Assembly (NCBI GenBank): GCA_017643495.1
Contig: JAEPNK010000002.1
Span: 558,001-622,000 of the forward strand
Length of the DNA: 64,000 nucleotides
DNA from: Rhizobiaceae bacterium
Lineage (GTDB): Bacteria; Pseudomonadota; Alphaproteobacteria; Rhizobiales; Rhizobiaceae
Direction of reading: 5' to 3'
The notes below the pieces were generated by a model. The model saw only the letters and a list, made by a program, of their open reading frames with translations, did no database searches and had not been told where the DNA came from. Position numbers and translations under genes: made by a program. Positions within the stretch are counted from its first letter, which is position 1. Every line of letters starts with the position of its first letter. This document shows positions 3,809 through 35,303 of this stretch, in pieces.

Positions 3809-3815
<7 letters not shown>

Positions 3816-8517: not shown

Positions 8518-8520
8518 TCC

Positions 8521-9813
8521 ATGGCCTACATCGAAGAAACACGAGCCCCCGTCGTTCCAAGCCTCGGGGAGGCAACTCTAGTCTGGCTGAAAATCGGACT
8601 TCTGTCCTTTGGTGGACCTACCGCCCAAATCGCTCTGATGCACAAGGAGATTGTTGAAGAGCGAGCGTGGCTAAGTGAGCAGCAGTACCTCAACGCACTC
8701 AGCTTTTGCATGCTCTTGCCGGGGCCGGAGGCCATGCAACTCGCGACTTACGCAGGGTGGCGTCTTCATGGAACAATAGGCGGCCTGATTGCTGGGCTTT
8801 TGTTCGTTTTACCAGGTGCCTTAGTGATCATGGCGCTTGCAACGATCTACAGTGTGTTCGGCGATGTTCCTCTGGTGGACGCGCTGTTCTACGGGATCAA
8901 GGCAGCAGTTCTGGTGATTGTAGTCGATGCGCTCCTCAGGGTCTCGAAAAAGAGCCTTTCAACGCGGTTGCATTGGACAATCGCTGGTGTGGCTTTCGTT
9001 GGTATCTTCTTTCTCTCGGTGCCCTATCCTTTGATCGTGGCATTCGCGGCTTTGCTGGGCTGGTTCATCGGCGTTGAGAAGGCGATTACGGTCGAGGACA
9101 AACCTGCGTCCGTCTCATTTGGGAGTACGTTGTCGACGGGCGCTATTGGGCTTGCCGTATGGGCAGCCCCGTTCATCCTCCTGGCTGTCTTTGGGGCTAA
9201 CGACATTCTTCTTCAAGTGGGTGTATTTTTCTCCCAACTGGCTGTGGTGACGTTCGGCGGCGCTTACGCGGTGCTGGCCTACATGGCTCAGGATGTTGTG
9301 GTGGACTTTGGATGGCTTACCGCAGGTGAAATGGTCGATGCACTCGGCCTTGCCGAAACCACGCCGGGTCCACTTATCCTTGTGACACAGTTCGTCGGTT
9401 TTCTGGCTGGGTTTCAGGAAGGCGGGTTATTACTTGGATTTTTGGCAGCCACTGTTGCGCTTTGGGTAACCTTTGCGCCCTGCTTTCTTTGGATTTTTGC
9501 CGGAGCTCCGTACATCGATTGGATTTCCGAACAACCTCGATTGCGCAGTACCTTGAAGGCAATCACTGCCGCTGTGGTTGGCGTCATCCTGAATCTGTCG
9601 CTCTGGTTCGCGCTTCACTTTCTGTTCTCTGAAGTTCAACAAGAACGCCTAGGCCTGGTCACTCTGTGGAAACCAAACCTTGCTTCAATCGAATGGTTAG
9701 CTCTGGCGTTGTTCGGCTTGAGCGGGTTCATGGCATTCTGGTTGCATTGGGGCATCATCCGCGTTCTGGCTATTGCGTCAGTAACGGGTTGCGCTCTGCA
9801 TTTGCTACTTTGA
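8521..9813 (+). CDS. chrA: Chromate transporter ChrA
   Basis: It is an inner-membrane chromate efflux protein (CHR family). The 430 residues are the long two-domain form: an N-terminal half with LKIGLLSFGGPTAQIALMH and LPGPEAMQLATYAGW, and a C-terminal half repeating the pattern with FSQLAVVTFGGAYAVLAYM and LAETTPGPLILVTQFVGFL. About a dozen hydrophobic helices are visible. It starts three bases after the chrB stop. A strong bidirectional hairpin terminator follows at 9910. The pair is probably cargo of the island. Confidence 0.95.
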   Translation: MAYIEETRAPVVPSLGEATLVWLKIGLLSFGGPTAQIALMHKEIVEERAWLSEQQYLNALSFCMLLPGPEAMQLATYAGWRLHGTIGGLIAGLLFVLPGALVIMALATIYSVFGDVPLVDALFYGIKAAVLVIVVDALLRVSKKSLSTRLHWTIAGVAFVGIFFLSVPYPLIVAFAALLGWFIGVEKAITVEDKPASVSFGSTLSTGAIGLAVWAAPFILLAVFGANDILLQVGVFFSQLAVVTFGGAYAVLAYMAQDVVVDFGWLTAGEMVDALGLAETTPGPLILVTQFVGFLAGFQEGGLLLGFLAATVALWVTFAPCFLWIFAGAPYIDWISEQPRLRSTLKAITAAVVGVILNLSLWFALHFLFSEVQQERLGLVTLWKPNLASIEWLALALFGLSGFMAFWLHWGIIRVLAIASVTGCALHLLL

Positions 9814-12905: not shown

Positions 12906-14645
12906 TTATTGTGCTGAGGTCCAAATATAATTAGTCAACTCACTGTCAGTTAATTCATCATTATAATGGAGATTCCGAAGCATATTAATTGACCTTACTA
13001 AGTCGTCTTCAGCAGAGCAATAGTAGACTGCTGACTTCTGTATAAGACTACCTGCCTCAGAGAGATACACCGAAGGTAGTGATGGCGCTCTAGACTTATG
13101 GGGTGTCAATAAGAGAACTGGCTTTCTATGTTCCAACGCTTCAAAAACAACTGCTGTAATCCCTTCTGTGACCACAAGATCCGAACTCTGAATTTGCCAT
13201 TCATGAGATCCAAAACTAGAATCATGGACTCCTTTTGCAGGGTCGATCCATTTCTTGACGTCATTTGGTAAAAGACCGCGGTCAAGAGACCATATACCAC
13301 GCTTCGCCTCATCCTTCGTGGTCGTCTTCAAACGTAGATAAAGCTCTACTCCCCTCAGCTTTGCTACAGCTTCGGCGAGTTTCTGTATGCAAAAGCTTGT
13401 TTCGTAACAGGAAGAAGACATGCCATGATAACACGCATGCCAGCTTAGGAAATTGGGGGCGTAGAATATCCGAAACTGCCGGGTGGCTGGAGAAAGTTTT
13501 CGCTCGCCAAGTCCTACCACGCGCGGTTTCGAAATAATTTTTTTTCTAGCTTCCTGTTCCGATATTTGAAGTATAGATCGTGGCTCCAAGGAGCTAGCCC
13601 ATGAGGGCTCATTATAAACGCTTCGGGACAAAAGTCTTGCTATTGAACTGCGGGGTTCGGCACCATGAGCAACCATACAGCCATGGCTCTTGAAATGGAT
13701 GGGGATTCTTTGTTCTGCCAAAGCGGAACCAAAACCAGCCAGTTCGGGTGAACCCACATTATTGAAACGGGCTTCTAAAGGCTTCTTTGCAACTCTATTA
13801 ATAAAGCTCTTCATGCTTTCGCGAGCTAGCAAATACTGTAGTTCAAACTCGACTAGGGAATCTATTATCGCATGCACAACACGTGGCTGCACGATTGAAA
13901 TTAATTGCGCCTCCAACGTATGATCCAATACACTCATAATTCCGGTTGGGTGGTGTGTTTCCAAAAAATACCGGATTCGCTGACCGGAGCTAAAGCGCTT
14001 TAGAAACTGCAAACCATTCCTAATTTGCCGTTGCAAATGGCTTCTTTTTTTTGAACCAACTACCGGGCGCACTGAAATACACGACGACGCTCCCTGAGCA
14101 AACTTTCTGCCCGATTGGGAAGAAAAATCGAATATATAATCTTCATGAAAAAGAGCATATCGGCTCTTACTCCGCTTACTTAAATCAGCTATCTCCTCGC
14201 TATTTAGCAATCTTGACAAGCGAGCATCCATCGTTTGTGTTGAGTTTTCAGGTAAAGAACCGCCAGTATTGCCGGAAAGCTCATCTTCCACTTTCTGTCT
14301 TGCTAGCGCTGAGAATCCCGTTTTCACCCCCCAAGCCGCCATACAATCATGTAAGCTGCGATCAACTGCGGTGGTCAAAAGTCGGTCAGAAAGGACAGAA
14401 TAAACTTCACCCACTGTCTCCATGATCACACGCTTTCCAGCATCTCCAAGCAAGTCATCCGGGTTAATAGGATTTAATTTTTTTTCGGTCAGAATATGAT
14501 GGACGTGAGCCGAACCCGCAACCAAGATAGCGTTATTCGAAAGCTTGTCTGACGCTCTGGATACGAACTGAATTTGTGGGTTAGTGTGTTCTTTAGTGTT
14601 CATTGATTGTCGATTCGTATCCACATACTCGTTAGCTCGAAGCAC
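12906..14645 (-). CDS. Putative polysaccharide glycosyltransferase, GT-B-like C-terminus
   Basis: This 579-residue protein is not one I recognise with confidence. The C-terminal third looks like the nucleotide-binding half of a GT-B or CDP-glycerol-transferase-like enzyme: FRIFYAPNFLSWHACYHGMS, LRLKTTTKDEAKRG, then SDLVVTEGITAVVFEALEHR with KPVLLLTP, which is the usual E-x7-E-like donor site. The middle part HFKSHGCMVAHGAEPRS could contact the acceptor. Neighbouring sulfotransferases and a GT8-like enzyme support a surface-polysaccharide role. The gene ends close to the opposite-strand sulfotransferase gene and is flanked upstream by an IS3 element. Confidence 0.55.
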   Translation of the reverse strand: MLRANEYVDTNRQSMNTKEHTNPQIQFVSRASDKLSNNAILVAGSAHVHHILTEKKLNPINPDDLLGDAGKRVIMETVGEVYSVLSDRLLTTAVDRSLHDCMAAWGVKTGFSALARQKVEDELSGNTGGSLPENSTQTMDARLSRLLNSEEIADLSKRSKSRYALFHEDYIFDFSSQSGRKFAQGASSCISVRPVVGSKKRSHLQRQIRNGLQFLKRFSSGQRIRYFLETHHPTGIMSVLDHTLEAQLISIVQPRVVHAIIDSLVEFELQYLLARESMKSFINRVAKKPLEARFNNVGSPELAGFGSALAEQRIPIHFKSHGCMVAHGAEPRSSIARLLSRSVYNEPSWASSLEPRSILQISEQEARKKIISKPRVVGLGERKLSPATRQFRIFYAPNFLSWHACYHGMSSSCYETSFCIQKLAEAVAKLRGVELYLRLKTTTKDEAKRGIWSLDRGLLPNDVKKWIDPAKGVHDSSFGSHEWQIQSSDLVVTEGITAVVFEALEHRKPVLLLTPHKSRAPSLPSVYLSEAGSLIQKSAVYYCSAEDDLVRSINMLRNLHYNDELTDSELTNYIWTSAQ

Positions 14646-14879: not shown

Positions 14880-15727
14880 TTAAGCTCCAGGCGATGATAT
14901 GCCATTTGAGCAGTTTATCAGCGTGACCGGCGTTTTGTTGCCAATCGCACTATGGGGTCGAACATTATTGTAGTCCTCTCGCCACGTTTCCATTTTCATC
15001 CGCGCATCGTCAAGGCTCATAAACCAGTGGGTGTTCAAGCATTCTTGCCGGAATTTGCCATTGAAGCTCTCGATGAAGGCGTTGTCCGTTGGCTTTCCCG
15101 GCCTTGAGAAGTCGAGGGTGACACCCTTCTGGTAAGCCCACAAATCCAAATCACGGGATATGAACTCACTGCCATTGTCGACCCGAATGGATTTAGGATA
15201 ACCAAGCTTACGACAACCCTTTTCCAGTATCTGAACCACATCTTCGCCTTTGTAGCTGAACCTCGGATCAATGGCTGGCGAGTAACGTGAGAAAGTGTCT
15301 ACAATCGTCAGGATTCTGATCTTCCCACCCGTCACCAACTGATCATGGACAAAGTCCATCGCCCAAGTCTGATTGCTCTGAGTGGCCTCAACACGATCCT
15401 CACGTAGCTTGGCTTTGACACGCCGTTCGGTGTTCTATTTCTCAACTGAAGCCCCATCTCTCTGTAAAGACGATAGATTCTCTTTGCATTCACCTGCCAG
15501 CCTTCACGGCGCAACAACACATGGATCCGCCTATACCCATAGCGGACACGCGTCTGTGCAATATCCTTGAACCGTTTCTTCAAATCGGCCTGATCATCGC
15601 CATGAGATCGATAATGATGCGTGGATCTGGGGGCACACAACACGCCACAGGCGCGCCGGATGGATACGCCCCAAACCGCCTTCAAGTCATCAACTAGTTC
15701 ACGACGACGAGCAGGCCTTAGAGCTTT
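14880..15727 (-). pseudogene. IS3-family transposase OrfB (DDE), frameshifted
   Basis: The first part reads LRPARRRELVDDLKAVWGVS through RYGYRRIHVLLRREGW and RIYRLYREMGLQLRNRTP. The frame then breaks at about 15425-15428, where CCGAACGGCG appears where CCGAAACGGCG is needed to continue KRRVKAKLRED. After the break the integrase core continues as MDFVHDQLVTGG, VDNGSEF (second catalytic Asp) and AFIESFNGKFRQECLN (catalytic Glu). One A is missing, so the element is dead unless the shift is recoded or a sequencing error. The true start is upstream of the first ATG, in an orfA-orfB overlap. Confidence 0.88.
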
Positions 15728-16349: not shown

Positions 16350-17009
16350 TCAGCGGAACCGGTCCACGGGTGCAATGTTGACATCACGGCCCCACTTCAA
16401 ATGCAGTTCCATTGCAGCTCTCGCATCTTTTTCGTCACCCTTTAAAATTGCCTCCACAATATTCTGATGCTGCTCGACATTTATCGCGAGGCGGTCAGGG
16501 TGGGTTTTGTGGATATGCTTGGATAACCTGTACATTTTATCCTGCATCTGGCCCAGAGCAGTTATCATCTCATGGTTGCCATACGTGTTAGCGAGAAAAC
16601 TGTGAAACTCGAGATCAAGACGATGATACTCCACCGTATCCTTGACCTTTGCAGCGTGTTTCTGCTTCGAAATCAGCTGTGACAAGTCTCTTGACTGAGC
16701 AGGGTTTAATTTTCCGGCGAGACGCTCTGCAATATGGGGCTCAATCAGCATTCGGACTTCAAAAAAATCCATCACTTCCCGGTAAGTGATCTGCGGTACA
16801 CGGACTCCGGACTTTGGAATCATCTCTACCAAATCTTCTGACCTAAGTCTTTCAAGAGCAGACCGGATGGATGCAAGACCAAAATCCAGTTGGGAAGCAA
16901 GAAACCGTTCGGAATAGATCATGCCCGGATCTTCAGTATCTAATACAAGCATTTTGATCGTATCGTATGCCTGATCCTTCTTGAGTGTTTTCTTACCAAA
17001 CTGGTTCAT
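16350..17009 (-). CDS. GntR/FadR-family transcriptional regulator (FCD domain)
   Basis: A 219-residue repressor-type regulator. The winged HTH is DQAYDTIKMLVLDTEDPG through YSERFLASQLDFGLASIRSA. The C-terminal FCD domain has EYHRLDLEFHSFLANTYGN and RLAINVEQHQNIVEAI, carrying the Asp/His residues that bind metal or an acidic ligand. I start at ATG 17007-17009; a TTG ten codons upstream is less likely. It lies next to the SDR gene and the divergent TRAP/RuBisCO-like genes and is the obvious candidate to control them in response to a sugar acid. Confidence 0.88.
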   Translation of the reverse strand: MNQFGKKTLKKDQAYDTIKMLVLDTEDPGMIYSERFLASQLDFGLASIRSALERLRSEDLVEMIPKSGVRVPQITYREVMDFFEVRMLIEPHIAERLAGKLNPAQSRDLSQLISKQKHAAKVKDTVEYHRLDLEFHSFLANTYGNHEMITALGQMQDKMYRLSKHIHKTHPDRLAINVEQHQNIVEAILKGDEKDARAAMELHLKWGRDVNIAPVDRFR

Positions 17010-17310
17010 GTTCAAAGTCCGTTTGTGGACCGACTTCAAAAGTCGTCTGCCCTAGTATTCACCTTGCATACCACATTCAATTGAAATCCGGATACGTGTC
17101 CAAAACTAAAAACTGAAAAAAGTCAGTCCTGAAACACAACCAGAAATCCAGTGAACGCAATAGATTGTCATTCTGCACCATGATTGTTCTCCAGACGAAT
17201 GTCGGGAATATTTGACCGCGCAACAATCAGGCATGTCAGCCGGATACGAAATCGCGCCAAGCATGAAAACGGATCAGTCCAAACCGGGAAATTCAGGTCA
17301 GTTGTGTTTT
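17010..17310. other. Spacer between the SDR and GntR genes
   Basis: No coding sequence is supported. The GntR promoter should lie here, but no clear -10/-35 pair stands out. Confidence 0.4.
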
Positions 17311-18135
17311 TCAGGCATTCTGACTGATTCCCTTCTCGGTTTTGGACTTTGGAGGTGCCATTCCTTCAACGCCCTCTTTTTCAAACATCAAGCCAGCACT
17401 CAAAAACCCGCCATCGACGTTGAAGGTGGCTCCACTCACATGGGAAGCATCCGCTGAGGCCAGGAAAGCAACTACGTTTGCAACTTCTTCCGGGGTACCA
17501 TAGCGACGCTGCGGGATGAGAAAATGATAAGCCTCGCGTGTGTTTGAATCATGCTGCTCAATCGCCATCTGGGTTGCGATGGCTCCCGGCGCAACATTGT
17601 TGACAAGGATGCCCTTGGCGGCCAGTTCGACGGACATCACTTTCGTCAGAAGTTCGAGCCCGGCCTTCGAAACACCATAGGCCGACCTGCCGATGCCGCC
17701 ACGTTGTCCGGACAGGGACGCGATGTTTATGACCCGTCCGTAGGAATTTGGGAGCATTTTCTCAACAGCAGCTTTCGCGCACAGAAATGCACCAATCAAG
17801 TTCACGCCAAGAATGCGTTCCATGTCTTCCTTGGTTGTATCAACAAACAGTTTGGTCGTTGAAATGCCTGCATTGTTGACGTGGATATCCAGCTGGCCGA
17901 ATTCACTGACAGCGAGGTCGGCAAGTGCGTTTGCTTCAGCTTCCCTTGATACATCAACCCGCAAGCCAATGGCTTTTCCACCGTCTTTGCTGATGTCGGC
18001 GGCCACTTTTCTTGCGGCGACTTCATCGACGTCAGAAACGACGACACTTGCCCCCTTCGCCGCCAGCGCCCTGGCAATTGCCTCACCCATGCCACGTCCT
18101 GCACCTGTAACCGTTGCGACCCTTTTTTCCAGCAT
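17311..18135 (-). CDS. Short-chain dehydrogenase/reductase (classical SDR)
   Basis: A 274-residue NAD(P)-dependent oxidoreductase. The cofactor loop is VTGAGRGMGEAIARAL, Asp in VVVSDVDE after beta2 favours NAD, NNAGIS follows, and the catalytic set is Ser in INIASLSGQRGG with YGVSK. The C-terminus has a 25-residue extension (MAPPKSKTEKGISQNA) beyond the usual SDR end. It is divergent from dctP of the TRAP operon. The context with a RuBisCO-like protein and an acid-sugar kinase suggests that it oxidises a sugar-acid hydroxyl to the oxo form used by the kinase. The substrate is inferred only. Confidence 0.9.
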   Translation of the reverse strand: MLEKRVATVTGAGRGMGEAIARALAAKGASVVVSDVDEVAARKVAADISKDGGKAIGLRVDVSREAEANALADLAVSEFGQLDIHVNNAGISTTKLFVDTTKEDMERILGVNLIGAFLCAKAAVEKMLPNSYGRVINIASLSGQRGGIGRSAYGVSKAGLELLTKVMSVELAAKGILVNNVAPGAIATQMAIEQHDSNTREAYHFLIPQRRYGTPEEVANVVAFLASADASHVSGATFNVDGGFLSAGLMFEKEGVEGMAPPKSKTEKGISQNA

Positions 18136-18182
18136 TCAGCATCTCCTGATTTGATTTGGCGAATTGTTTTCAATCCATGTTG

Positions 18183-18222
18183 ATTGACAAAATTCTTGAC
18201 TCTATTTTTGTAAAATGTCAAT
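18183..18222 (+). promoter_or_regulatory. Candidate promoter/operator of the TRAP-RLP operon
   Basis: ATTGACA (18183-18189) and TGTCAAT (18216-18222) are exact inverted heptamers. The first contains a consensus -35 TTGACA, with TTGTAA 18 bases downstream as a weak -10. A GntR-type dimer site over the promoter is possible; this is pattern matching only. Confidence 0.3.
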
Positions 18223-18271
18223 GAAATGTCACGTATCGCAGAAAGGGCCATGCGTTCAACAGGAGGAAATT

Positions 18272-19252
18272 ATGAAAAGACTGATTAGTAAGTTTGCAGT
18301 GGCTACCGTATTTGGTGTGCTGTCGGTATTTTCTGCAAATGCAGAGACAGTATTCAAACTTGGTGCTGTTGGTTCACCTGGCACACCTGAAATTGACGCG
18401 GCATTGCAATTTTCAAAAATTGTTGCTGAAAAAAGCAATGGTGAATACCGGATTGACGTTTTGCACTCCGGCCAGGCTGGCGGCGAACGCGAGATTGCCG
18501 AAGGGTTGCAGTTTGGCACGACGGATTTTGCTATCCTGGGAGGCATCGTCCAGAATTTTGACCCTGCCCTCATGATAGTTGAATGGGACCTGCTGTTCAA
18601 AAACAATGAACATGTCCGCGCTGTCATGAACGGCCCGATTGGGGAAGACATTTCCAAGAGGCTTCAAAAAAACCTTGGCGCAAGAAAAGTTGCCACCTTC
18701 ATGCGGTCACCAAGGTTGCTGACGACAAATACGGAAGTAAAGGACCTCGCTGACATCAAAGGCAAGAAAATCCGCGTTCCGGAAATGCCTGCCCGTATCG
18801 CCTTGTGGAAAGCGCTTGGCGCACAACCCACACCAATGGCATTTCCAGAAGTCGTACCTGCCCTGCAACTCGGCACCATCGACGGACAGGAAAATCCGAT
18901 AGGACTTATCACGTCAACGGGCATTGATGAGGCTGTCGACTACCTGGCCGACACAAAACATCTCTACGGCTTCATGTTCATGCTTGCCTCAGAGGGCGCT
19001 TGGAACCGGATTCCCGAAAAGGATCACGCAATCTTCAATGAAGCTGCTGCAGAAGCCGCCTCGTATAATGACGAGCTGGTCGAGAAATCGGTTGCCGACG
19101 GAATGGGCAAGGCACAGGCTAAAATGACGGTCACCCAGCCTGATCTGGAAGCATGGAGAGCTGCTACCTCGGACGTTCACAAGCAGTTCGAGAACGTCGA
19201 GGGCTTTGCCGACCTTTATTCCCGCATCGTGGAAGAAGGCAAAAACCACTGA
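18272..19252 (+). CDS. dctP: TRAP transporter substrate-binding protein (DctP family)
   Basis: A periplasmic solute receptor for organic acids. The start at 18272 is set by AGGAGG at 18261-18266, five bases upstream. Residues 1-24 are a signal peptide ending FSANA-E. The mature part has DVLHSGQAGGEREIAEGLQF, the Arg-containing KKIRVPEMPARIALWKALGA (carboxylate-binding Arg region) and LQLGTIDGQENPI, all family hallmarks. The 326-residue length is normal. It heads dctPQM-RLP-kinase and should bring in the sugar acid processed by those enzymes. Confidence 0.95.
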   Translation: MKRLISKFAVATVFGVLSVFSANAETVFKLGAVGSPGTPEIDAALQFSKIVAEKSNGEYRIDVLHSGQAGGEREIAEGLQFGTTDFAILGGIVQNFDPALMIVEWDLLFKNNEHVRAVMNGPIGEDISKRLQKNLGARKVATFMRSPRLLTTNTEVKDLADIKGKKIRVPEMPARIALWKALGAQPTPMAFPEVVPALQLGTIDGQENPIGLITSTGIDEAVDYLADTKHLYGFMFMLASEGAWNRIPEKDHAIFNEAAAEAASYNDELVEKSVADGMGKAQAKMTVTQPDLEAWRAATSDVHKQFENVEGFADLYSRIVEEGKNH

Positions 19253-19259
19253 ATGTCCT

Positions 19260-19281
19260 GACGCCGCCTCCGGGCGGCGTC
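19260..19281 (+). terminator. Intercistronic hairpin between dctP and dctQ
   Basis: A perfect nine-pair stem GACGCCGCC/GGCGGCGTC closes loop TCCG, just after the dctP stop. No T run follows. Such hairpins protect the dctP message or attenuate transcription so that the binding protein is made in excess over the permease. Confidence 0.6.
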
Positions 19282-19306
19282 TTGGCTTCTGGTTGGGGCA
19301 GGTTTC

Positions 19307-19813
19307 ATGTCGACTTTTCGAACGCTTGACCATATTTATATTCGCTCGATCGCGCTCGTCTGCATTGCGCTTTTTGTGGTCATGCTTGCTGCCATTCTTT
19401 CGCAAGTGGTCATGCGGTATGTTTTTTCCAACCCGTTGTCATGGTCTGAAGAGCTCGCGCGTTACTCGATGGTATGGCTGGCCATGATGGCGGCAGCGCT
19501 CTGCTCGCGGGCAAGCCAACACCTCACCTTGATCAGTGCGGAAATGTTGCCTCCACCATTGCAAAAGCCATTGCGTTATCTCGGAACCTTGATTGCCTGC
19601 GTTATTCTCGGAGTGTTGTTCTGGCATGCGACTGACCTTGCAGTCCGCACAGCACGCCAGACCACGCCGGGCCTTGGATTGTCAATGAGCTGGATTTACG
19701 CAGCGTTGCCTACGGGGTTCGCACTCATGATCCTGGGGCAGGTGCTGGGTCTGTTTTTCTCTGATGCCAGAGCCATGCCAGAAGAAACCGACACCACAAA
19801 CACGCCTGTCTGA
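19307..19813 (+). CDS. dctQ: TRAP transporter small permease (DctQ family)
   Basis: A 168-residue four-helix membrane subunit. The conserved LSQVVMRYVFSNPLSWSEEL with ARYSMVWLAMMAAA lies in helices 1-2, and LSMSWIYAALPTGFALMILG gives the last pair of helices. It lies between dctP and dctM and completes the transporter. Confidence 0.93.
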   Translation: MSTFRTLDHIYIRSIALVCIALFVVMLAAILSQVVMRYVFSNPLSWSEELARYSMVWLAMMAAALCSRASQHLTLISAEMLPPPLQKPLRYLGTLIACVILGVLFWHATDLAVRTARQTTPGLGLSMSWIYAALPTGFALMILGQVLGLFFSDARAMPEETDTTNTPV

Positions 19814-19821
19814 GAATTTTC

Positions 19822-21105
19822 ATGCCAACCATAGTCTCTTCAATCGCTGCTGTTTTGTTCCTTGTCGCCGGGGTGCCGATTGCATTGGCGTTGCTTGTAA
19901 TCCCTCTGGCCTTTCTGGTTCTCGACCCGTCGCTCACCACGCCAATGCTGGTGATTCCGCAGAAAATGTTTGCAGCAATGGACAGCTTCCCCCTGATGGC
20001 AGTGCCTTTTTTCGTGCTCGTCGGCCAGGTCATGAACAGTGGCGGCATCACCACACGCATTTTCGAGTTCGCCAATTCCCTTGTCGGTCATTTTCGCGGC
20101 GGCCTCGCACAGGTCAACATCATTGCAAGCCTGTTGATGTCCGGCATGTCGGGGTCTGCCGTGGCGGACGCATCCGGACTTGGACAGGTGGAAATAAAAG
20201 TCATGACAGATGAGGGATATGATCCGGGCTTGGCGGCCGCGGTGACAGCCGCCTCCGCAACTGTCGGGCCGATCATTCCGCCCAGCATTCCCCTGGTCAT
20301 CGTTGGAGCGGTTACAAACACCTCCATATCACAGCTTCTGGTGGCGGGGTTGTTGCCCGGTCTTCTGATGACGGTTGCCCTTTGCAGTCTGGTGGCCTGG
20401 ATTGCGCGGCGGAACAACCTGCCAACCCGCCCGCGGGCAACGCTGCACCACCTGTTTATGTCTTTTGCAAGATCCGCACCGGCGCTGTTTGCCCCGGTAT
20501 TGCTTGTTGGCGGCATCCTTGCCGGTGTGTTTACGCCGACCGAGGCTTCTGCCGTCGCGGCCGCATATGCAATCCTGATTGCGATGTTCTGGTATCGCGA
20601 AATGGATATGTTCGGTCTCTTTCGTGTATTGTGGACAAGTGCCATGACGGTGGGAGCCATCTTTTTCATAATTGCGGCCGCGGCCACAGTTTCATGGCTT
20701 CTGACCTGGCTTGGCGTCCCGCAAAGACTAGCTGGCGAATTGGGCAATCTGACCGGGAATCCCGTTATCCTGATGCTCATGATCATCGGTTTCCTGTTGG
20801 TTGTAGGGTGTTTTCTGGAGAGCAACGCGGCCATCATTCTGGTGGCACCCTTGCTCGTTCCCATTGCCGTAAATGCGGGCTTTGATCCTGTACACATCGG
20901 TACGGTCATAGTGCTCACACTGATGCTGGGTCTCGTTACCCCTCCAGTGGGCATGAACATGTTTATTGTCATGTCGATTGCCCGCATCTCCTTGCGCCAC
21001 TACTTGCGTGCGATTTGGCCCTTTTTCATCGTCCTTATGGTAGCAACCCTGACTGTCGCCTTTGTACCGTGGATTTCGCTTGTGGTGCCGAGAACATTAC
21101 TCTGA
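19822..21105 (+). CDS. dctM: TRAP transporter large permease (DctM family)
   Basis: The 427-residue large subunit carries the transport path using a Na+ gradient. Motifs include MSGMSGSAVADASGLG with Asp, ASATVGPIIPPSIPLVIVGA, GVFTPTEASAVAAAYA and LMLGLVTPPVGMNMFIV. It starts eight bases after dctQ and ends eleven bases before the RuBisCO-like gene, so the operon continues directly into the catabolic enzymes. Confidence 0.95.
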   Translation: MPTIVSSIAAVLFLVAGVPIALALLVIPLAFLVLDPSLTTPMLVIPQKMFAAMDSFPLMAVPFFVLVGQVMNSGGITTRIFEFANSLVGHFRGGLAQVNIIASLLMSGMSGSAVADASGLGQVEIKVMTDEGYDPGLAAAVTAASATVGPIIPPSIPLVIVGAVTNTSISQLLVAGLLPGLLMTVALCSLVAWIARRNNLPTRPRATLHHLFMSFARSAPALFAPVLLVGGILAGVFTPTEASAVAAAYAILIAMFWYREMDMFGLFRVLWTSAMTVGAIFFIIAAAATVSWLLTWLGVPQRLAGELGNLTGNPVILMLMIIGFLLVVGCFLESNAAIILVAPLLVPIAVNAGFDPVHIGTVIVLTLMLGLVTPPVGMNMFIVMSIARISLRHYLRAIWPFFIVLMVATLTVAFVPWISLVVPRTLL

Positions 21106-21116
21106 AAGAGATCGCA

Positions 21117-22361
21117 ATGACTTATCGCTTTTCAGCCGACTATATTTTGCGCACTTGTGGGGATGCCGCGAAAACTGCACAGATTGCTGCCGGTGAACAA
21201 TCATCGGGCACATTTGTAGAAATACCGGGTGAGGATGAAGCGCTGAAGCAGCGTTCTGCCGCTCAGGTCGAGCTACTTGAACAGGTTGAAGACCCTGGCA
21301 CCCCGGTTTTGGCGGGCAGCGAGGGAGATGGAACACCTACAAGTTGGAAAATGCGGTTGTCGTGGCCGCTTGAGAATATCGGCCCTTCGCTGCCAAACCT
21401 TGTGGCAACAGTCGCCGGAAATATCGGGGAATTGAAACAGGTTGCCGGGTTGAAAATCACAGACCTGCATCTGCCTGCGCCGTTTTTTGAACGATACCAC
21501 GGTCCCGGATTTGGTGTTGAAGGTACACGCAGGCTGGCTGGCGTTCATGAAGGCCCGCTTATCGGCACAATCATAAAACCCTCCGTTGGCCTCACCGCGG
21601 CAGGCACAGCGGCGCTGGTCGATGAGCTGTGTGAGGGCGGTATAGATTTCATCAAGGATGACGAACTTCAAGCCGACGGGACCCGGTGCCCCTTCGAAAC
21701 CCGTTTTGAGAAGGTGATGGACGTTGTGGACCGGCATGCAGACCGCTCGGGCAGGAAAGTCATGTATGCGGTCAACATTACCGGAGAACTCGATGAAATG
21801 CTCCACCGTCACGAACTGGTACTGAAGCGCGGTGGCACTTGTGTGATGGTAAGCCTCAACTCCGTCGGAATGACCGGTCTCGCTGCCTTGCGAAACGAGA
21901 CACAGCTGCCCATCCACGCACATCGCAATGGCTGGGGAATGCTCGGGCGACCAGACCATACCGGCTGGTCATATCCTGCCTGGTCCACATTATGGCGTGT
22001 AATTGGTGTTGACCACATGCATGTGAACGGTCTTTCAAACAAGTTCTGGGAAACGGACGAAAGTGTGATTGCCTCGGCACGGCACTGCCTTTCACCGCTA
22101 CATTTCGATTTCCCAAACCGGGTGATGCCGGTATTCTCATCCGGGCAAACGGTATTGCAGGCCGCCCCGACATATCAGCAAACGGGATCGAGCGACCTGA
22201 TCTTTTGCGCAGGTGGCGGAGTGGTTGCCCACCCGTCCGGCGTTGGCGCTGGTGTAAAGTCCCTGAGAGAATCCTGGCAAGCCGCATTCGAAGGGATATC
22301 CCTTGAAGCAGCAAGCGCCAAATCTTCCGTACTCAGGGAAGCGGTAGAAAAATTTTCATGA
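21117..22361 (+). CDS. RuBisCO-like protein (form IV)
   Basis: A 414-residue RuBisCO large-chain homologue. I start at ATG 21117 with GAAAGAG upstream; an open frame extends further but overlaps dctM. It keeps GTIIKPSVGL (equivalent of Lys175; Lys177 position is Ser), FIKDDELQ (carbamylated Lys201 with Asp203/Glu204), the HAHRNGWG His, VFSSGQT and CAGGGVVAHPSG phosphate loops. The loop-6 Lys334 region is not recognisable, so CO2 fixation is unlikely. Family members beside DUF1537 kinases act on 3-oxo-isoapionate-4-phosphate (OiaT/OiaX types). Here it lies between a TRAP transporter and such a kinase, with which it overlaps by ATGA. The exact reaction is inference. Confidence 0.88.
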   Translation: MTYRFSADYILRTCGDAAKTAQIAAGEQSSGTFVEIPGEDEALKQRSAAQVELLEQVEDPGTPVLAGSEGDGTPTSWKMRLSWPLENIGPSLPNLVATVAGNIGELKQVAGLKITDLHLPAPFFERYHGPGFGVEGTRRLAGVHEGPLIGTIIKPSVGLTAAGTAALVDELCEGGIDFIKDDELQADGTRCPFETRFEKVMDVVDRHADRSGRKVMYAVNITGELDEMLHRHELVLKRGGTCVMVSLNSVGMTGLAALRNETQLPIHAHRNGWGMLGRPDHTGWSYPAWSTLWRVIGVDHMHVNGLSNKFWETDESVIASARHCLSPLHFDFPNRVMPVFSSGQTVLQAAPTYQQTGSSDLIFCAGGGVVAHPSGVGAGVKSLRESWQAAFEGISLEAASAKSSVLREAVEKFS

Positions 22362-23701
22362 CTATGACAAGCGACAGCATAAGACTTGCCTTTTACGGTG
22401 ATGATTTTACCGGGTCTACGGACGCGATGGAAGTAACCGCATTTGCCGGATTGCGGACCGTCCTGTTCACCAGCATTCCCGGTGATGACTTGCTGGAGAG
22501 GTTCCGAGGATATGACGTCATCGGCATTGCAGGTACTTCGCGTGCGCGCAGTCCGGAATGGATGGAAGAAAATCTTCATGAAGCCTTCCGTGCCTTGCGC
22601 CGGTTGAACCCGCGTATCGTACAATACAAGGTTTGCTCGACATTCGATTCCTCACCTGAAGTCGGGTCAATCGGGCGCGCTGTTGATATCGGCATGTGCG
22701 AAGTCGGAGGAAATTGGTCGCCGCTGGTCGTGGGCGCCCCGCAACTCGGCCGCTGGCAGGCATTTGGCAACCTCTTTGCCCGCGCAAGCGACGGCACATA
22801 CCGTCTGGACAGACACCCAACCATGTCACGCCATCCCGTCACACCGATGAAGGAAAGTGATCTGCGAATTCATCTTGGAATGCAGACAGAAAGACCTGTA
22901 ACTGCGGTTTTCGGCCCTGACCTTCCAGCCTTTGAAACGGTAGCGCAAGGCGATGCGCCGTCAGCAGTTTTCCTGGATGTATTTGATGAAGCGACGCAGG
23001 AACATGCGGGCAGAATTGTCTGGACTGCAGCAATGAAGCAAAGGGTTTTTTCTGCATCTTCCTCTGGGTTGCAATATGCGCTGATATCCCATTGGAGATC
23101 TGCAGGGGAAATTCCGTCAATCGCCGAAGAAATACCAAAAGCACGCCCGGTAGACCATTTGCTTGTCCTTTCGGGTAGTTGCTCACCCGTTACGGCCGAA
23201 CAAATTGATCATGCAGAGAGCGAAGGATTTACGACAATCCGTATCGACGTCATTGCAGCTACCGGAGAAGACATTGAAACCGAACTTTCACGGCTGGAGA
23301 ACCTTGTTTCTATAGGGTTCACGCAATCCCGCGGCGTGCTGGTTTACGCCGCCCGGACGGTTGATGATCCGGCTTACTCGGCTCTTGAGCATGCAGCAGC
23401 AGGGCGAAACCAGAATTTTTCGAAAGCTCAACACATGCTTGGCGACTTCATGGGAAAGTTGGTTCACCGGCTTGTCCCAAAACTCTCCCTGTCAAGAATC
23501 GTTGTGGCTGGAGGCGACACATCGGGCAGGATCATAGGGAGTTTGCCCATACAAGCGCTGGAAGTTGCACATCCGCTTGCGAAAGGCGTTCCCATTTGCC
23601 ATTGCCACTCGTCTGACAAGGCATTCGATGGTCTTCAGGTAGCTCTCAAGGGAGGGCAAATCGGCGATGCTTCATTATTTTCACGGGCGTTTGGCGGATA
23701 G
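22358..23701 (+). CDS. Four-carbon acid sugar kinase family protein (DUF1537)
   Basis: A 447-residue ATP-dependent kinase for acid sugars. The N-terminal acid-sugar site is LAFYGDDFTGSTDAMEVTAF, and the C-terminal nucleotide-binding domain has RIVVAGGDTSGRIIGSLPI. Known members phosphorylate erythronate, threonate, denerate-type substrates or 3-oxo-isoapionate (OiaK). Its ATG overlaps the RuBisCO-like stop codon, so the two products are likely consecutive in a pathway: kinase makes the 4-phosphate, the RuBisCO-like protein cleaves or decarboxylates it. Substrate remains to be assigned. Confidence 0.9.
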   Translation: MTMTSDSIRLAFYGDDFTGSTDAMEVTAFAGLRTVLFTSIPGDDLLERFRGYDVIGIAGTSRARSPEWMEENLHEAFRALRRLNPRIVQYKVCSTFDSSPEVGSIGRAVDIGMCEVGGNWSPLVVGAPQLGRWQAFGNLFARASDGTYRLDRHPTMSRHPVTPMKESDLRIHLGMQTERPVTAVFGPDLPAFETVAQGDAPSAVFLDVFDEATQEHAGRIVWTAAMKQRVFSASSSGLQYALISHWRSAGEIPSIAEEIPKARPVDHLLVLSGSCSPVTAEQIDHAESEGFTTIRIDVIAATGEDIETELSRLENLVSIGFTQSRGVLVYAARTVDDPAYSALEHAAAGRNQNFSKAQHMLGDFMGKLVHRLVPKLSLSRIVVAGGDTSGRIIGSLPIQALEVAHPLAKGVPICHCHSSDKAFDGLQVALKGGQIGDASLFSRAFGG

Positions 23702-24435: not shown

Positions 24436-24975
24436 TCAGTTAGTGTGTCTTTGCGCGATATAGTCCACCATCTCCGGTCCGGTTAGCACCCGGGACGAGT
24501 TGCCAATGCGCACGAAGAATGTGTCATTGCCTTTGGCTGTTTTGGCGTATACTGGCTTTGACGCTGGTTTTACATCGACAAGACAAATGTCCTTCCCGTC
24601 GTTTGCTTCAAAGCGGATCTTGACCAGTGAAGCCACATTCGATTGACCGACAGCCCCCATGAGCATTGTTGACAACCAGTTTTCGTAGCCATCAATATCC
24701 TGCTTCTTAAAGTCCAGATCAGGTTGGATGCCGAGTAGATCGCCATCGTCGGAGATCCCAATACCCAGTGTGCCACCTTTAGCATTCATGAATGCGGCTA
24801 CCGTCTTTATGATGCCTTCGTTGATGACCTTTTCCGGAATGTTGGGATCAAGTGGCTTGCGCGCAGTGGATTTGAACTCGATTTGGTTCGTTTCCATTTC
24901 TTGCAACAAATCCGCAACTGAAAGCTCTTTGGGTGGCCCCATAGCGATAATCTGGTCATAAACGCGCTTCACCAA
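24436..24975 (-). CDS. Schlafen/AlbA_2 domain protein, probably N-terminally truncated
   Basis: The AlbA_2 (divergent AAA-4/Schlafen) fold is visible: IEFKSTARKPLD, then AAFMNAKGGTLGIGISDDGD with LLGIQPD, and a C-terminal DTFFVRIGNSSRVLTGPEMV. These domains bind nucleic acid or nucleotides and occur in defence and regulatory proteins, usually as part of longer chains. The listed start is a TTG. The frame stays open upstream (…NWLWVQREG) into the right-hand direct repeat until a stop at 25045-25047, and no good ATG with a ribosome site is seen. I infer loss of an N-terminal domain at the island boundary. Confidence 0.65.
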   Translation of the reverse strand: MVKRVYDQIIAMGPPKELSVADLLQEMETNQIEFKSTARKPLDPNIPEKVINEGIIKTVAAFMNAKGGTLGIGISDDGDLLGIQPDLDFKKQDIDGYENWLSTMLMGAVGQSNVASLVKIRFEANDGKDICLVDVKPASKPVYAKTAKGNDTFFVRIGNSSRVLTGPEMVDYIAQRHTN

Positions 24976-25134: not shown

Positions 25135-25523
25135 CGCGGACAACGGTGATGCTTGAAGGGTGATTTGCGCGGCGTGATCAACCTCAAAAGCAATAGCGTG
25201 ACCACAACAATCGATTAATACAACACTTCCATTACGATAGCAGTTCAGAAATCACAGGCCAATGCGGTTCCTTGTCCCCTGACTCGTTTCCTGTTTGATG
25301 TTTTGGTTGTTAATTACCACAGAGGATCATGGTGAGTACTGCGATTGCTCGAAGAGGCGGTTATCGGCTGCACTGGATTTCTCTTTCACCGCTGATTGCC
25401 GTAGTAGCAGGGGAACCAGTCATCCCCCCGCGAGTTGTTGTTGCATAACCATGTAATCTGTCATTGTCTGGAGAATGATAAGAACCGGTTTTTACAGGAA
25501 AACTTCCCGAAGGAGGCAATCGA
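25135..25523. other. Intergenic region upstream of ctaG
   Basis: Nothing beyond the ctaG ribosome-binding site is recognisable in these ~390 bases. The promoter of the oxidase region probably lies here. Confidence 0.4.
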
Positions 25524-26237
25524 TTGTCTGATGGATCATGGAACCGGATTTATTGTGGGCGTCCACCTGAGCCGCCTGAAATCTGGTCAAACTGGAACTT
25601 CGACCCACCTCTCCTGGTTGCCCTGGCAATTCTTGCACTTGTCGTCGGGCGGGACCCGCGAGGACTGGCAGCCGTAACAGTACTGTTCATTGCTTTTGTA
25701 TCCCCACTCTGCGCGCTGTCTTCTGCCCTCTTTTCTGCTCGCGTCGTCCATCATGTCTTGCTTACCGTAGTCGCTGCCCAACTGATTGGCTGGTATCTGC
25801 CATCGCGCAAAGCCCGGTCGGTAATGCTGCCTTTTGCAGTTTCAACACTGGTATTCTGGTTCTGGCACGCACCGGCGCCCTATGATCGCGCACTTTCACA
25901 TATCGGCATTTACTGGTTGATGCAGATTACCCTGCTGGCAAGCGCTGTTTGGTTCTGGCGTGAAGTGTCCGCCCGCAACCGTTCGCCAGTCGAAGCCTTG
26001 ACTTTCATCGTTATGGGGTTTGCGCAAATGGGTATGCTGGGTGCAGTTCTGACCTTTGCGCCGCAACCAATGTATGCGGCCCATGCAATCGCCCCCTTTG
26101 CGTGGCAATTGTCACCACTTGCAGATCAGCAAATCGGCGGATTGATCATGTGGGTACCGGCTGGCGTGCTTTATGCACTGGCCGCCATTTTCTTGTTGCC
26201 CCGTCCGTGGAGCAAAGCAGGGGATGAAATTACGTGA
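25524..26237 (+). CDS. ctaG: Cytochrome oxidase assembly protein, CtaG (caa3 type)
   Basis: A polytopic membrane protein thought to help CuB insertion into caa3-type oxidases. The start is a TTG at 25524, chosen because AGGAGG at 25511-25516 is seven bases upstream. It has about six hydrophobic segments, with HHVLLTVVAAQLIGWYLP, FWFWHAPAPYDRALSH and GMLGAVLTFAPQPMY as family motifs; several His residues could bind copper. It overlaps the next gene (GTGA) and precedes an oxidase operon. Confidence 0.87.
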   Translation: MSDGSWNRIYCGRPPEPPEIWSNWNFDPPLLVALAILALVVGRDPRGLAAVTVLFIAFVSPLCALSSALFSARVVHHVLLTVVAAQLIGWYLPSRKARSVMLPFAVSTLVFWFWHAPAPYDRALSHIGIYWLMQITLLASAVWFWREVSARNRSPVEALTFIVMGFAQMGMLGAVLTFAPQPMYAAHAIAPFAWQLSPLADQQIGGLIMWVPAGVLYALAAIFLLPRPWSKAGDEIT

Positions 26238-26746
26238 CCGATTGGCTTGTTGTTCTGGTTCCGCTCTTCAAGTCGGTCCATATCACCGCATTGTGCGTGT
26301 GGTGCGGGGGGCTGATCGCAATGCCGCTCATGCTGGCTAAACACGATCCGGCAGTGCCACAGGAAGATTACGACCGTATCCGAAAGGCCACCCACCTTAC
26401 CTACACGCTTGGCTTGACACCTTCGGCTGTCATCGCCGTCATTGCAGGTACATGGCTGATCTTTATGCGTGACACCTTTGCACCCTGGTTTTACGCCAAG
26501 CTGTTCTTCGTTATGCTATTGTTAGCTGCCCATGTATGGATCGGGCATGTACTGGTCCTTGTGGCTGAGGCATCGCACAAGGTGCAGCCTCCAAAGCCCT
26601 ATTTGCCGATCAGTGCCGTTCTCGTTTCGGTTATCGGCATTCTCGCCCTGGTGCTGGGAAAACCGGAACTCGACTGGATTCAGTTTCCGTCCTGGTTTCT
26701 TGAGCCCATGGATGGCCGTTTGCCCTTCGAAGTGCCAAGATTGTAA
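26234..26746 (+). CDS. CopD-like four-helix membrane protein
   Basis: A 170-residue integral membrane protein with a GTG start overlapping the ctaG stop. FKSVHITALCVWCGGLIAMP (helix 1, His) and FYAKLFFVMLLLAAHVWIGH (His) resemble the CopD/HemJ-type fold in which His residues bind heme or copper. It is encoded with ctaG, so a role in oxidase maturation is plausible. Its 3' end overlaps the opposite-strand DUF2231 gene by 67 bases. Confidence 0.72.
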   Translation: MTDWLVVLVPLFKSVHITALCVWCGGLIAMPLMLAKHDPAVPQEDYDRIRKATHLTYTLGLTPSAVIAVIAGTWLIFMRDTFAPWFYAKLFFVMLLLAAHVWIGHVLVLVAEASHKVQPPKPYLPISAVLVSVIGILALVLGKPELDWIQFPSWFLEPMDGRLPFEVPRL

Positions 26747-27231
26747 TCGAAGACGAGCTTACCACCATGCCAACCCGTCACAATAACCATGATTACGCAC
26801 AGCCCGGACAACAGGATTCCGTAGGGCAAGACTGCTTCTTCGTATCCGCTGAGACGGTGTCCCCAGTTGGCCGCAAGAAATGCCAGCAATGTGACAGCAA
26901 TGATGAAATGCGTCCAGGCTGGCGCGCGCGCACGGATGCCAGGCACGAACAGCAGCTCAGCGGTGCCGGAAAAACCGGAAAACATCCCGAACAGAAAACC
27001 GGTACCTGCTGCCCAAAGCGCAGCGCGGGCCCAAAAGGCGTCTCCGGTCCACCAGTAGATGAGGTCGGCACCGAATACGCAGAATGTCAGGGCCACCGGA
27101 AAAGCAACACTCATCGCATGAATGGGATGGCCGAGAATAGCAACGCGCGATTCCGTCAGATGATGACCCGGGAGCTCACTAATCGGATCAATCAGATCTT
27201 CTGTTCCGTCTTGGCTCTTCTGATCGGTCAA
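26680..27231 (-). CDS. DUF2231 membrane protein
   Basis: A 183-residue protein with four hydrophobic segments. VAILGHPIHAMSVAFPVALT carries the H-P-x-H motif typical of DUF2231, and WTHFIIAVTLLAFLAANWGH gives another His pair. It starts at TTG with AAGGAGA eight bases upstream; that ribosome site lies inside the start of the divergent oxidase subunit II gene. Function is unknown; heme-like binding has been suggested for related folds by their His pattern. Confidence 0.8.
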   Translation of the reverse strand: MTDQKSQDGTEDLIDPISELPGHHLTESRVAILGHPIHAMSVAFPVALTFCVFGADLIYWWTGDAFWARAALWAAGTGFLFGMFSGFSGTAELLFVPGIRARAPAWTHFIIAVTLLAFLAANWGHRLSGYEEAVLPYGILLSGLCVIMVIVTGWHGGKLVFDYNLGTSKGKRPSMGSRNQDGN

Positions 27232-27915
27232 ATGCGTCTCCTTCGATTGTCGCTGGCTGCCATCCTAGTGGCGATTGTCACCGGTTGCCAAGGCCGACTA
27301 TCAACCCTTGACCCGGCCGGACCGGCAGCAGAAACCATTGCCTTACTCTGGAACGTCATGTTTGTCGGCTCGGCCGGTATCTTCATTCTGGTAACGATTC
27401 TGCTGGCGATGTCGTTCCGCGCGAAGCGGTCGAACAGCAGCGAAACCACTCTGGAGCGTGCCTGGATCATCGGACTGGGTATTTGTTTCACGATGACTGT
27501 TCTTGCAATACTCCTTGCCTACGGCATCATTGCCGGCAACCGGTTGACGGCAAGCCACTCGGAAGATGCGGTGAAGGTTTCCGCCAGAGCCGACCGTTCG
27601 GGCTGGACATTCAGCTATGATGCAAGACCCGGTCACGCAACCCGGGATATCCTGCACATACCAGCCGGCCAGAACGTCACGGTTTCAATCACGACCGGCG
27701 ATGTCATTCACAGTTTCTGGGTGCCACGCCTCGCCGGAAAGCTTGATGCAATTCCCGGCCACGTCAACACATTGAAACTGCGGGCAAACGAGCCCGGAAC
27801 CTATGCAGGCCGCAGTGCGGAATACAGCGGCCCCGGCTATCTGGGGAACCGTTTCGAAGTGCGGTCTCACGGGGCTGATACCTGGCAGGCTTTTTTGCAG
27901 GGAGAACTGGATTGA
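27232..27915 (+). CDS. Heme-copper oxidase subunit II lacking the CuA site
   Basis: A 227-residue subunit II. I start at ATG 27232, giving a lipoprotein-like signal ending LVAIVTG-C. Two membrane helices follow (about 40-60 and 83-105), then a cupredoxin domain with VIHSFWVPRLAGKLDAIPG. The CuA loop, normally C-x-E-x-C-x3-H-x2-M, reads SAEYSGPGYLGN, so both Cys, the His and the Met are absent. This resembles quinol oxidase CyoA (SASYSGPGF) and implies that electrons come from quinol rather than cytochrome c. A longer open frame upstream is antisense to DUF2231 and not coding. It overlaps subunit I by ATTGA. Confidence 0.88.
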   Translation: MRLLRLSLAAILVAIVTGCQGRLSTLDPAGPAAETIALLWNVMFVGSAGIFILVTILLAMSFRAKRSNSSETTLERAWIIGLGICFTMTVLAILLAYGIIAGNRLTASHSEDAVKVSARADRSGWTFSYDARPGHATRDILHIPAGQNVTVSITTGDVIHSFWVPRLAGKLDAIPGHVNTLKLRANEPGTYAGRSAEYSGPGYLGNRFEVRSHGADTWQAFLQGELD

Positions 27916-30395: not shown

Positions 30396-30712
30396 GCGAT
30401 GTGATCCGCATACTCTTCGCGCCACTAATCTGGCTGGCTGCTTTCAGCTTAATCTACGGCCTGCACGGATTGGGGTGCGCAAGTGATATGGCGAAAAGCG
30501 AAACGACGATCGGTGACAATATTTGGCCGGTTGTTCTGATACTGGCATGGCTGATCGCGATTGGAATTCAGATTGTCGTGATAATCGGTTTCAGACAAAC
30601 CAAGCCGCACCTGGCATTTACTGGCCAAGTCAGTGGCATTCTGGCATGGACCGCGCTCGTGGCAACCGTCTGGTCGCTGTTTCCCGTCATGGTCATGACC
30701 GGGTGCACGTGA
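30392..30712 (+). CDS. Small three-helix membrane protein of the oxidase operon
   Basis: This 106-residue protein starts at the ATG that overlaps the subunit I-III stop (ATGA). It has three hydrophobic segments: LFAPLIWLAAFSLIYGLHGL, NIWPVVLILAWLIAIGIQIV and WTALVATVWSLFPVMVMTGC. It has the size of a subunit IV or an oxidase accessory protein, but no conserved motif is recognised. Coupling to the oxidase is seen directly. Confidence 0.75.
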   Translation: MSDVIRILFAPLIWLAAFSLIYGLHGLGCASDMAKSETTIGDNIWPVVLILAWLIAIGIQIVVIIGFRQTKPHLAFTGQVSGILAWTALVATVWSLFPVMVMTGCT

Positions 30713-35206: not shown

Positions 35207-35303
35207 GAAACAAAAAATATTGTACTGACTGATCCAACGCACAACTTCCGGAAAAGATGCATTCTGCCTTCAAGTATTTTCATTCGTGTGGCAAACTGCT
35301 CTT

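Follow-up and report, generated by a model that had tools for sequence, protein, structure and literature searches.

A gene unit built around a RuBisCO-like protein (RLP) was analysed in a stretch of 64,000 nucleotides from a Rhizobiaceae bacterium (contig JAEPNK010000002.1; C11:558001-622000), hereafter called the window. The host genome measures 3.74 Mb and is 99.99% complete. On the forward strand lie dctP (18272-19252), dctQ (19307-19813) and dctM (19822-21105), which encode the solute-binding protein, the small permease and the large permease of a tripartite ATP-independent periplasmic (TRAP) transporter. They are followed by the gene of a form IV RLP (21117-22361; PF00016, 210 bits) and that of an OiaK-like DUF1537 (SBD_N/NBD_C) kinase (22358-23701; PF07005, 158 bits; PF17042, 105 bits). 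Divergent from these five genes, on the reverse strand, are a classical short-chain dehydrogenase/reductase (SDR) gene (17311-18135; PF13561, 214 bits) and a gene for a GntR-family protein with an FCD domain (16350-17039; PF07729, 92 bits; PF00392, 37 bits), which is the probable regulator of the unit. All seven frames are intact with Pfam matches above the gathering scores, including those of DctP (PF03480, 217 bits), DctQ (PF04290, 112 bits) and DctM (PF06808, 390 bits); DctM also matches TIGR00786 with 417 bits, above its cut-off.

The intergenic gaps are 54 bases between dctP and dctQ, 8 between dctQ and dctM and 11 between dctM and the RLP gene, and the stop codon of the RLP gene and the start codon of the kinase gene share the sequence ATGA, as an initial annotation of this DNA had reported. 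Because of these short gaps and the overlap, dctPQM-RLP-kinase looks like a single operon. The same annotation had described all seven genes as contiguous at 17311-23701; the genes are indeed present, intact and supported by Pfam, but the GntR gene lies outside that interval. The RLP more likely starts at the ATG at 21117 than at the first in-frame TTG at 21015, and dctP more likely at 18272, which is preceded by AGGAGG, than at the opening of its frame at 18215.

Identity of the RuBisCO-like protein

The best named model for the RLP was that of OiaX (NF042437), matched with 403.5 bits, under the curated cut-off of 700. Two positive controls, the RLP of L115, whose record names OiaX, and a relative in L156, scored 760 and 761 bits on the same model, and membership of the RLP in OiaX is thereby ruled out. 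The initial annotation had envisaged an acid-sugar pathway with OiaK-, OiaT- and OiaX-like enzymes. Its TRAP transporter, SDR, DUF1537 kinase and RLP are all there, but the RLP is not an OiaX. No model named OiaT was among the model matches of the RLP, and we infer that the protein is OiaT-like from its kinship to ApnO/ApnL-linked RLPs of Xanthobacteraceae only. The host genome holds one OiaX-family match, and none of the five same-genus genomes searched (81-99% complete) gave an RLP match.

The solved structure nearest to the RLP by sequence is 3nwr, entitled 'a rubisco-like protein'. In pairwise alignments with the solved RuBisCOs 8dht and 6hun, residues N102, K154, K180, D182, E183, H269, R270, H302 and G366-368 align with RuBisCO residues. 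The carbamate lysine K180 and the metal ligands D182 and E183, by which the RuBisCO superfamily is recognised, are kept; we take them to be the counterparts of K201, D203 and E204 in plant numbering, and the RuBisCO roles of the aligned residues are likewise presumed. Since these catalytic residues are kept, the RLP would be expected to coordinate Mg2+ by way of a carbamylated lysine and to process an enediol. K309 is invariant in 38 rows of the alignment, but both pairwise alignments place a gap there; lying 7 residues after H302, the spacing of plant RuBisCO, it is a candidate for the loop-6 lysine K334. The phosphate-site serine S379 pairs with S341 in one alignment and with S342 in the other, and E27, T32 and F33 would presumably match E60, T65 and W66, judged by motif only.

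The kept catalytic residues would fit an enolase of methionine salvage or a RuBisCO that fixes CO2, and the initial annotation had regarded a methionine-salvage placement as a finding that would speak against its pathway. The MtnW models TIGR03332 and PRK09549 gave 124 bits (cut-off 514) and 158 bits (cut-off 409), compared with 403 on OiaX, and the form III RuBisCO model TIGR03326 gave 227 bits against a cut-off of 497. The gene is moreover surrounded by transport, dehydrogenase and kinase genes. MtnW and form III RuBisCO were both rejected on these scores, and a role in methionine salvage or CO2 fixation is highly improbable.

Partner proteins and the search for apiose and tetronate genes

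The kinase scored 515 bits on the OiaK model (NF042436), under the curated cut-off of 700. Eight other kinases scored 241-569 bits and none reached the cut-off, hence a positive control was absent for this model. The solved-structure matches of the SDR were mostly FabG-like or generic dehydrogenases. Organic acids are the cargo of TRAP systems. The best solved relatives of DctP are 4pc9, 4pdh, 4p9k, 4nq8 and 4pbq, and its AlphaFold2 model (predicted local distance difference test score, pLDDT, of 79) matches 4pdh, 4mmp and 4pcd. The ligands of 4pc9, 4pdh and 4p9k, which we take to be mannonate and erythronate, were given no weight. The relative 4PBQ is an L-gulonate binder according to the available text of PMC5788505.

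The initial annotation had seen no apionate oxidoisomerase or lactonase gene at this locus, a lack that now extends to the whole host genome. The best match there to an ApnO-like (apionate oxidoisomerase-like, PF16896) protein was of just 20 bits over 84 of 280 residues, and the apionate lactonase model ApnL (NF049900) had no match, the 14 built-in controls being silent. The same ApnL search matched 3 of 3 positive-control genomes, 2 of them (those of L028 and L067) above the cut-off; the lactonase probe from L018 scored 413 bits on NF049900, whose cut-off is 750. The ApnO-like probe carries PF16896 (one member scanned), and we take its family to be ApnO, a naming backed by linkage to ApnL in 25 of 42 loci. 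The apiose pathway was ruled out in the host genome on these results. Because both ApnO-like and ApnL genes are lacking genome-wide, the entry substrate is probably other than apiose, in agreement with the earlier suspicion.

Threonate and erythronate had also been listed as compounds to assay and have become less likely as substrates. A locus on another contig of the host genome (L125) carries an L-threonate dehydrogenase, a 3-oxo-tetronate kinase (OtnK) and a 3-oxo-tetronate-4-phosphate decarboxylase (OtnC), all above cut-offs, and because of this separate set linear tetronates are probably served by L125 and are less likely substrates of the unit. The L-threonate/D-erythronate pathway shares with the window the logic of dehydrogenase, DUF1537 kinase and decarboxylase, yet its decarboxylase is OtnC, a relative of class II aldolases, and its genes sit elsewhere in the host genome. 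Alternatively, the unit could degrade a linear tetronate or another linear aldonate with the RLP in place of the OtnC decarboxylase. An OtnC-like gene adjoins the RLP gene in L128, and otnK-otnC lie near an RLP gene in Cupriavidus (L116); erythronate is also presumed to be among the ligands of structures close to DctP. However, the presence of the L125 set and the score of the kinase, 515 bits on OiaK versus 176 on OtnK, make a linear substrate quite unlikely.

Two kinds of RLP-kinase loci

For comparison, 96 RLP-kinase loci were typed: the best 80 of 554 relatives in named genomes, 12 annotated plasmid loci and 4 further genome stretches. Typing was by neighbours within 9.5 kb; 21 of the 96 were dropped for short flanks, and 75 were counted, the window excluded. 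An ApnO-like gene only was found in 42 loci, a dehydrogenase in 23, both an ApnO-like gene and an SDR in 1, and none of these in 9. The 23 dehydrogenase-type loci comprise 9 with an SDR of the window's kind, 9 with an SDR of a second kind and 5 with a GalE-like extended SDR. ApnL-like genes occur in 25/42 ApnO-type versus 0/23 dehydrogenase-type loci (Fisher p 5e-7), a Gfo/Idh gene in 19/42 versus 0/23 (p 4e-5), TRAP genes in 10/42 versus 14/23 (p 0.006) and an ATP-binding cassette (ABC) sugar ATPase in 13/42 versus 3/23 (p 0.14), these p-values being too small because the loci are related. The window is a dehydrogenase-type RLP locus. The survey thus separates two main kinds of RLP-kinase locus, one with an oxidoisomerase-like gene and one with a dehydrogenase, the second kind having two SDR lineages.

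Phylogeny of the RLP and the SDR

A phylogeny of the RLP had been proposed in the initial annotation as a check. In the resulting tree of 122 rows, the window pairs with L002 (97), the pair joins L127 and L128 (97), and all fall in a 15-row clade (98 in the Shimodaira-Hasegawa-like approximate likelihood ratio test, SH-aLRT); the OiaX of L115 is 41% identical to the RLP. The clade, which includes the short-flank rows L003, L007, L013 and L051, has no ApnO-linked row in the stretches examined. By that test 8 of its rows have a classical SDR and 7 have neither; the latter are loci with an extended SDR or a similar frame. Across the whole tree, ApnO linkage changes state 14 times, at least 8 of the changes being forced by well-supported branches, versus 41 in shuffles; the number of swaps is rough, since a label of none may be wrong for rows whose flanks are 1.5 kb.

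The SDR tree has 52 rows, 27 of them RLP-linked, and includes the best SDR matches from 294 family and 385 class genomes, drawn regardless of RLPs. The window's SDR falls in a 12-row clade (97/89) in which 11 members adjoin RLPs; the twelfth, G244, lies beside TRAP genes like those of the window. This clade spans loci of the true OiaX kind (L115, L156) as well as the Methylobacterium-Azorhizobium kind, and 24 of the 25 SDRs that are not near an RLP fall outside it. A second clade of 12 (100/99) is RLP-linked throughout (12/12). Judging by this tree, two SDR lineages look devoted to RLP pathways, a picture favoured by the way in which the linked rows were collected, through RLP loci; the matches from the 294 and 385 genomes were not collected in that way.

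Recurrence of the unit in other bacteria

The unit has a counterpart in L002, from an uncultured Rhodobacteraceae, in which SDR, dctP, dctQ, dctM, RLP, kinase and GntR genes lie within 8 kb. Identities to the window are 72% for SDR, 80% for DctP, 46% for DctQ, 76% for DctM, 74% for RLP, 61% for the kinase and 53% for GntR. As L002 carries all seven genes in so short a stretch, the unit exceeds chance adjacency. Between the SDR and dctP genes of L002 there is a perfect palindrome, TATTGACA-TGTCAATA (TATTGACATGTCAATA), at L002:2867-2882. The same place in the window is a divergent promoter region (18136-18271, assigned to neither strand) with weak TTGACA/TGTCAA half sites at 18184-18222. A search of the window for a GntR operator gave weak inverted repeats only; the half sites and the L002 palindrome together are a possible candidate for this operator.

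In G244, TRAP genes (DctP 55%, DctM 60%), a GntR gene and the SDR gene (62%) lie together, and an RLP gene is absent from the 19 kb examined; the RLP match of that genome is on a different contig. Because G244 groups the SDR with TRAP genes, the SDR is tied not to the RLP alone but also to the transporter.

Both alpha- and beta-proteobacteria have further instances of the RLP-SDR-kinase combination. Loci with SDR, RLP and DUF1537 genes were found in Rhizobium etli (L112), Agrobacterium (L114), Azospirillum (L120), Methylobacterium (L032, L048) and beta-proteobacteria (L007, L009, L027, L080). Like the window, they hold the RLP, kinase and SDR genes within about 1-8 kb and have no ApnO-like or ApnL matches in the stretches examined. 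Unlike the window, they have an ABC transporter, KdgT, a long DctM-type permease, or no transporter that could be seen, and the R. etli, Azospirillum and beta-proteobacterial loci use the second SDR lineage. In three beta-proteobacterial loci with long flanks, SDR, RLP and kinase genes are adjacent, with no TRAP or ABC match.

Several of these loci carry further genes. L112 and L114, on R. etli and A. tumefaciens plasmids, have, besides SDR-RLP-kinase, ABC sugar genes and a hydrolase of the cyclase family (PF04199 in L112), and could be a sugar-fed form in which the hydrolase serves as lactonase. Directly upstream of SDR-RLP-kinase in L009 (5889-7283) is a TadA tRNA deaminase fused to a haloalkane-dehalogenase-like domain; similar frames lie upstream in L007, L027 and L080, the domain scan being that of L009. 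In L128, a 3-oxo-tetronate 4-phosphate decarboxylase gene (8275-8922, forward strand; 268 bits, above cut-off) adjoins the RLP gene of the window's clade, so that two candidate decarboxylases are found in one locus, which also has TRAP, kinase and extended-SDR matches. A GalE-like extended SDR of 320 amino acids lies between dctM and the RLP gene in L004 (9018-9980) and L129 (10342-11301), with a similar frame in L003 (9005-9973). These three loci hold close relatives of the window's RLP, and the GalE-like extended SDR (scanned in L004 and L129) is a third kind of partner dehydrogenase.

Discussion

The order and families of the genes, the kept catalytic residues, the lack of ApnO-like and ApnL genes and the recurrence of SDR-RLP-kinase form the basis of the interpretation. 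From them it is likely that the unit encodes an acid-fed route for the catabolism of a 2-C-branched sugar acid, with each reaction and the substrate predicted from sequence. DctPQM would take up a 2-C-branched aldonate. The SDR would oxidise the aldonate at the C3 hydroxyl, and the resulting 3-oxo acid, a beta-keto acid whose C2 bears a tertiary alcohol, would be phosphorylated at its terminal hydroxyl by the DUF1537 kinase. The RLP would then strip the carboxylate from the 2-carboxy-3-keto sugar phosphate by RuBisCO-type chemistry to yield an enediol. The enediol might be protonated, the RLP being a decarboxylase as OiaX is; it might be re-carboxylated and hydrolysed, as by OiaT; or it might react with O2, as is reported for the hamamelose enzyme. 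The likely end products would be 3-phosphoglycerate and glycolate, or a ketose phosphate.

An SDR could replace the oxidoisomerase because an acid already branched at C2 needs oxidation at C3 only, after which the kinase and the RLP could work as they do in the apionate pathway. ApnO converts apionate to 3-oxo-isoapionate, a compound of the same type as the proposed SDR product. The available text of PMC6302742 gives 3-oxo-isoapionate-4-phosphate as an RLP substrate, with decarboxylation and transcarboxylation/hydrolysis as the reactions of RLPs from Agrobacterium radiobacter and Xanthobacter autotrophicus. The D-apiose/D-apionate pathway, for which PMC6302742 cites Carter 2018, shares with the window adjacent DUF1537 kinase and RLP genes and an RLP with kept RuBisCO residues. 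It is set apart by the SDR that stands in the window in place of ApnO-like and ApnL genes, by the TRAP uptake of the window, and by the OiaX and OiaK cut-offs that the window's proteins fall short of.

Several points weigh against the acid-fed pathway. The roles of all seven proteins are deduced from their families, and the SDR could act on a different hydroxyl. The transporter is no marker of locus type, since TRAP genes occur in 10/42 ApnO-type loci and the ABC difference has p 0.14. Nine of the 75 loci match neither type; the counts ignore kinship among the loci, and the limits on SDR identity were chosen after viewing the data. Neither linked clade includes four of the 27 RLP-linked SDRs (L117, L005, L006, L010), and a tree with weaker SDR matches holds further linked rows outside both. 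G244 has SDR, TRAP and GntR genes without an adjoining RLP gene. Furthermore, the 11 best SDR matches of the class other than the window's own (E 1e-60, 385 genomes, 42-49% identity) had an RLP gene nearby in 0/11 cases, in stretches of 9-19.5 kb, and all fall outside both RLP-linked clades. A general linkage of SDR and RLP is rejected by this result, and the linkage therefore holds only within the two clades that were found through RLP loci.

If the unit is an acid-fed pathway for a branched acid, the leading substrates inferred are hamamelonate (2-carboxyarabinitol) and isoapionate, with other branched acids also to be considered; hamamelonate is the best single guess. Isoapionate (2-C-hydroxymethyl tetronate, five-carbon) would be oxidised by the SDR directly to 3-oxo-isoapionate, on which the kinase and the RLP would act as OiaK and OiaT. 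Among the 13 ApnO-linked RLPs of the alignment, L118 shares 50% identity with the window's RLP and the other 12 share 55-59% (57% for the ApnO/ApnL-linked Xanthobacteraceae proteins of L026 and L028), versus 41% for OiaX. Similarly, the 515 bits of the kinase on the OiaK model lie among the values of kinases from ApnO-type loci (417 and 569 bits), above those from OiaX loci (241 and 278 bits). Nevertheless, RLPs from dehydrogenase-type loci are as close to the window's RLP as the ApnO-linked ones (57-68% beyond the window's own pair, with the OiaX, Cupriavidus and Caballeronia rows aside), ApnO loci are thought to bypass an SDR on the way from apionate to the 3-oxo acid, and we know of no natural source of isoapionate. 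Isoapionate is thus an unlikely, though reasonable, choice.

With D-hamamelonate (2-carboxy-D-arabinitol, six-carbon) as substrate, the SDR would give 3-oxo-hamamelonate, the kinase its 5-phosphate, and the RLP 3-phosphoglycerate and glycolate, which would make the window a version of the hamamelose pathway fed by an acid. The hamamelose pathway is expected to include an acid dehydrogenase step. We regard it as the probable nearest precedent for the unit by analogy: the D-hamamelose pathway of Ochrobactrum anthropi likewise ends a short branched-sugar route with an RLP, a likeness drawn by description only. According to the available text of PMC8914248, which cites Kim 2018, the O. anthropi rlp gene lies among the hamamelose genes and its product catalyses the final step, 3-phosphoglycerate and glycolate being named there. 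Oxygenations are listed among RLP reactions, with the same work cited, in the accessible portion of PMC10176493. The chemistry from hamamelonate would also require an SDR but no oxidoisomerase. The title of a 1989 paper by Beck, as cited in the available part of PMC9833046, equates carboxyarabinitol 1-phosphate with hamamelonic acid 2'-phosphate, which makes free hamamelonate plausible in plant matter. However, unlike the hamamelose pathway, the window has a TRAP transporter, and no sugar dehydrogenase or lactonase is seen in the unit; this fits the uptake of an acid without proving it. Hamamelonate is accordingly a tentative choice, possible but short of probable.

A wider and rather unlikely proposition is that the unit lets a heterotroph grow on hamamelonate, the dephosphorylated form of a night-time inhibitor of plant RuBisCO, with the RLP entering the RuBisCO cycle half-way and its family repeatedly re-tooled between ApnO-fed and SDR-fed substrates. 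The RLP would join the cycle half-way because 2-carboxy-3-keto-arabinitol 5-phosphate, the compound expected from the oxidation and phosphorylation of hamamelonate, is the six-carbon RuBisCO intermediate minus the C1 phosphate. If 2-carboxyarabinitol is the substrate, the unit would show how a plant RuBisCO regulator returns to the carbon cycle.

The initial annotation had suggested a new pathway variant. The lack of ApnO and ApnL and the SDR in their stead agree with a variant, but RLP loci as a group are already split into ApnO and dehydrogenase types. The chemistry itself may not be new, because D-hamamelose is reported to be degraded by way of an RLP (PMC8914248, available text). Literature searches, with most subscription papers outside their scope, found no named description of the RLP-SDR-kinase combination or of an RLP with a TRAP transporter and kinase; on the bacterial catabolism of carboxyarabinitol they brought up PMC6302742 and PMC10176493. 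Few RLPs have been characterised, according to the available text of PMC10176493. The separation of the two locus kinds makes the substrates of many RLPs annotated merely as 'ribulose-bisphosphate carboxylase large subunit family protein' testable with a small list of compounds, and RLPs inform the origins of RuBisCO.

Other features of the window

Near the GntR gene, an insertion sequence (IS) transposase is encoded in two overlapping frames (14880-15685), with an integrase core in 14880-15359. Further to the left, at 3740-5783, a tRNA-Ala gene is followed by a large serine recombinase gene, and between these and the unit come chrB-chrA chromate genes with a piece of an integrase-core transposase. 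These features make the left side of the window a possible mobile island. A search for an empty insertion site in the genus with the flank 25500-30400 gave just three matches of 41-93 bases across 11 other genus genomes, too little for a comparison. A frame of 579 amino acids at 12906-14645 has no Pfam match at 1e-5. The kinase gene is closely followed, on the opposite strand, by a gene for a Schlafen AlbA_2 domain protein (24436-24975, 68 bits). Beyond it, a frame of 834 amino acids (32738-35242) encodes an unusual fusion of an NAD-dependent epimerase domain, SPW repeats and a VKOR domain.

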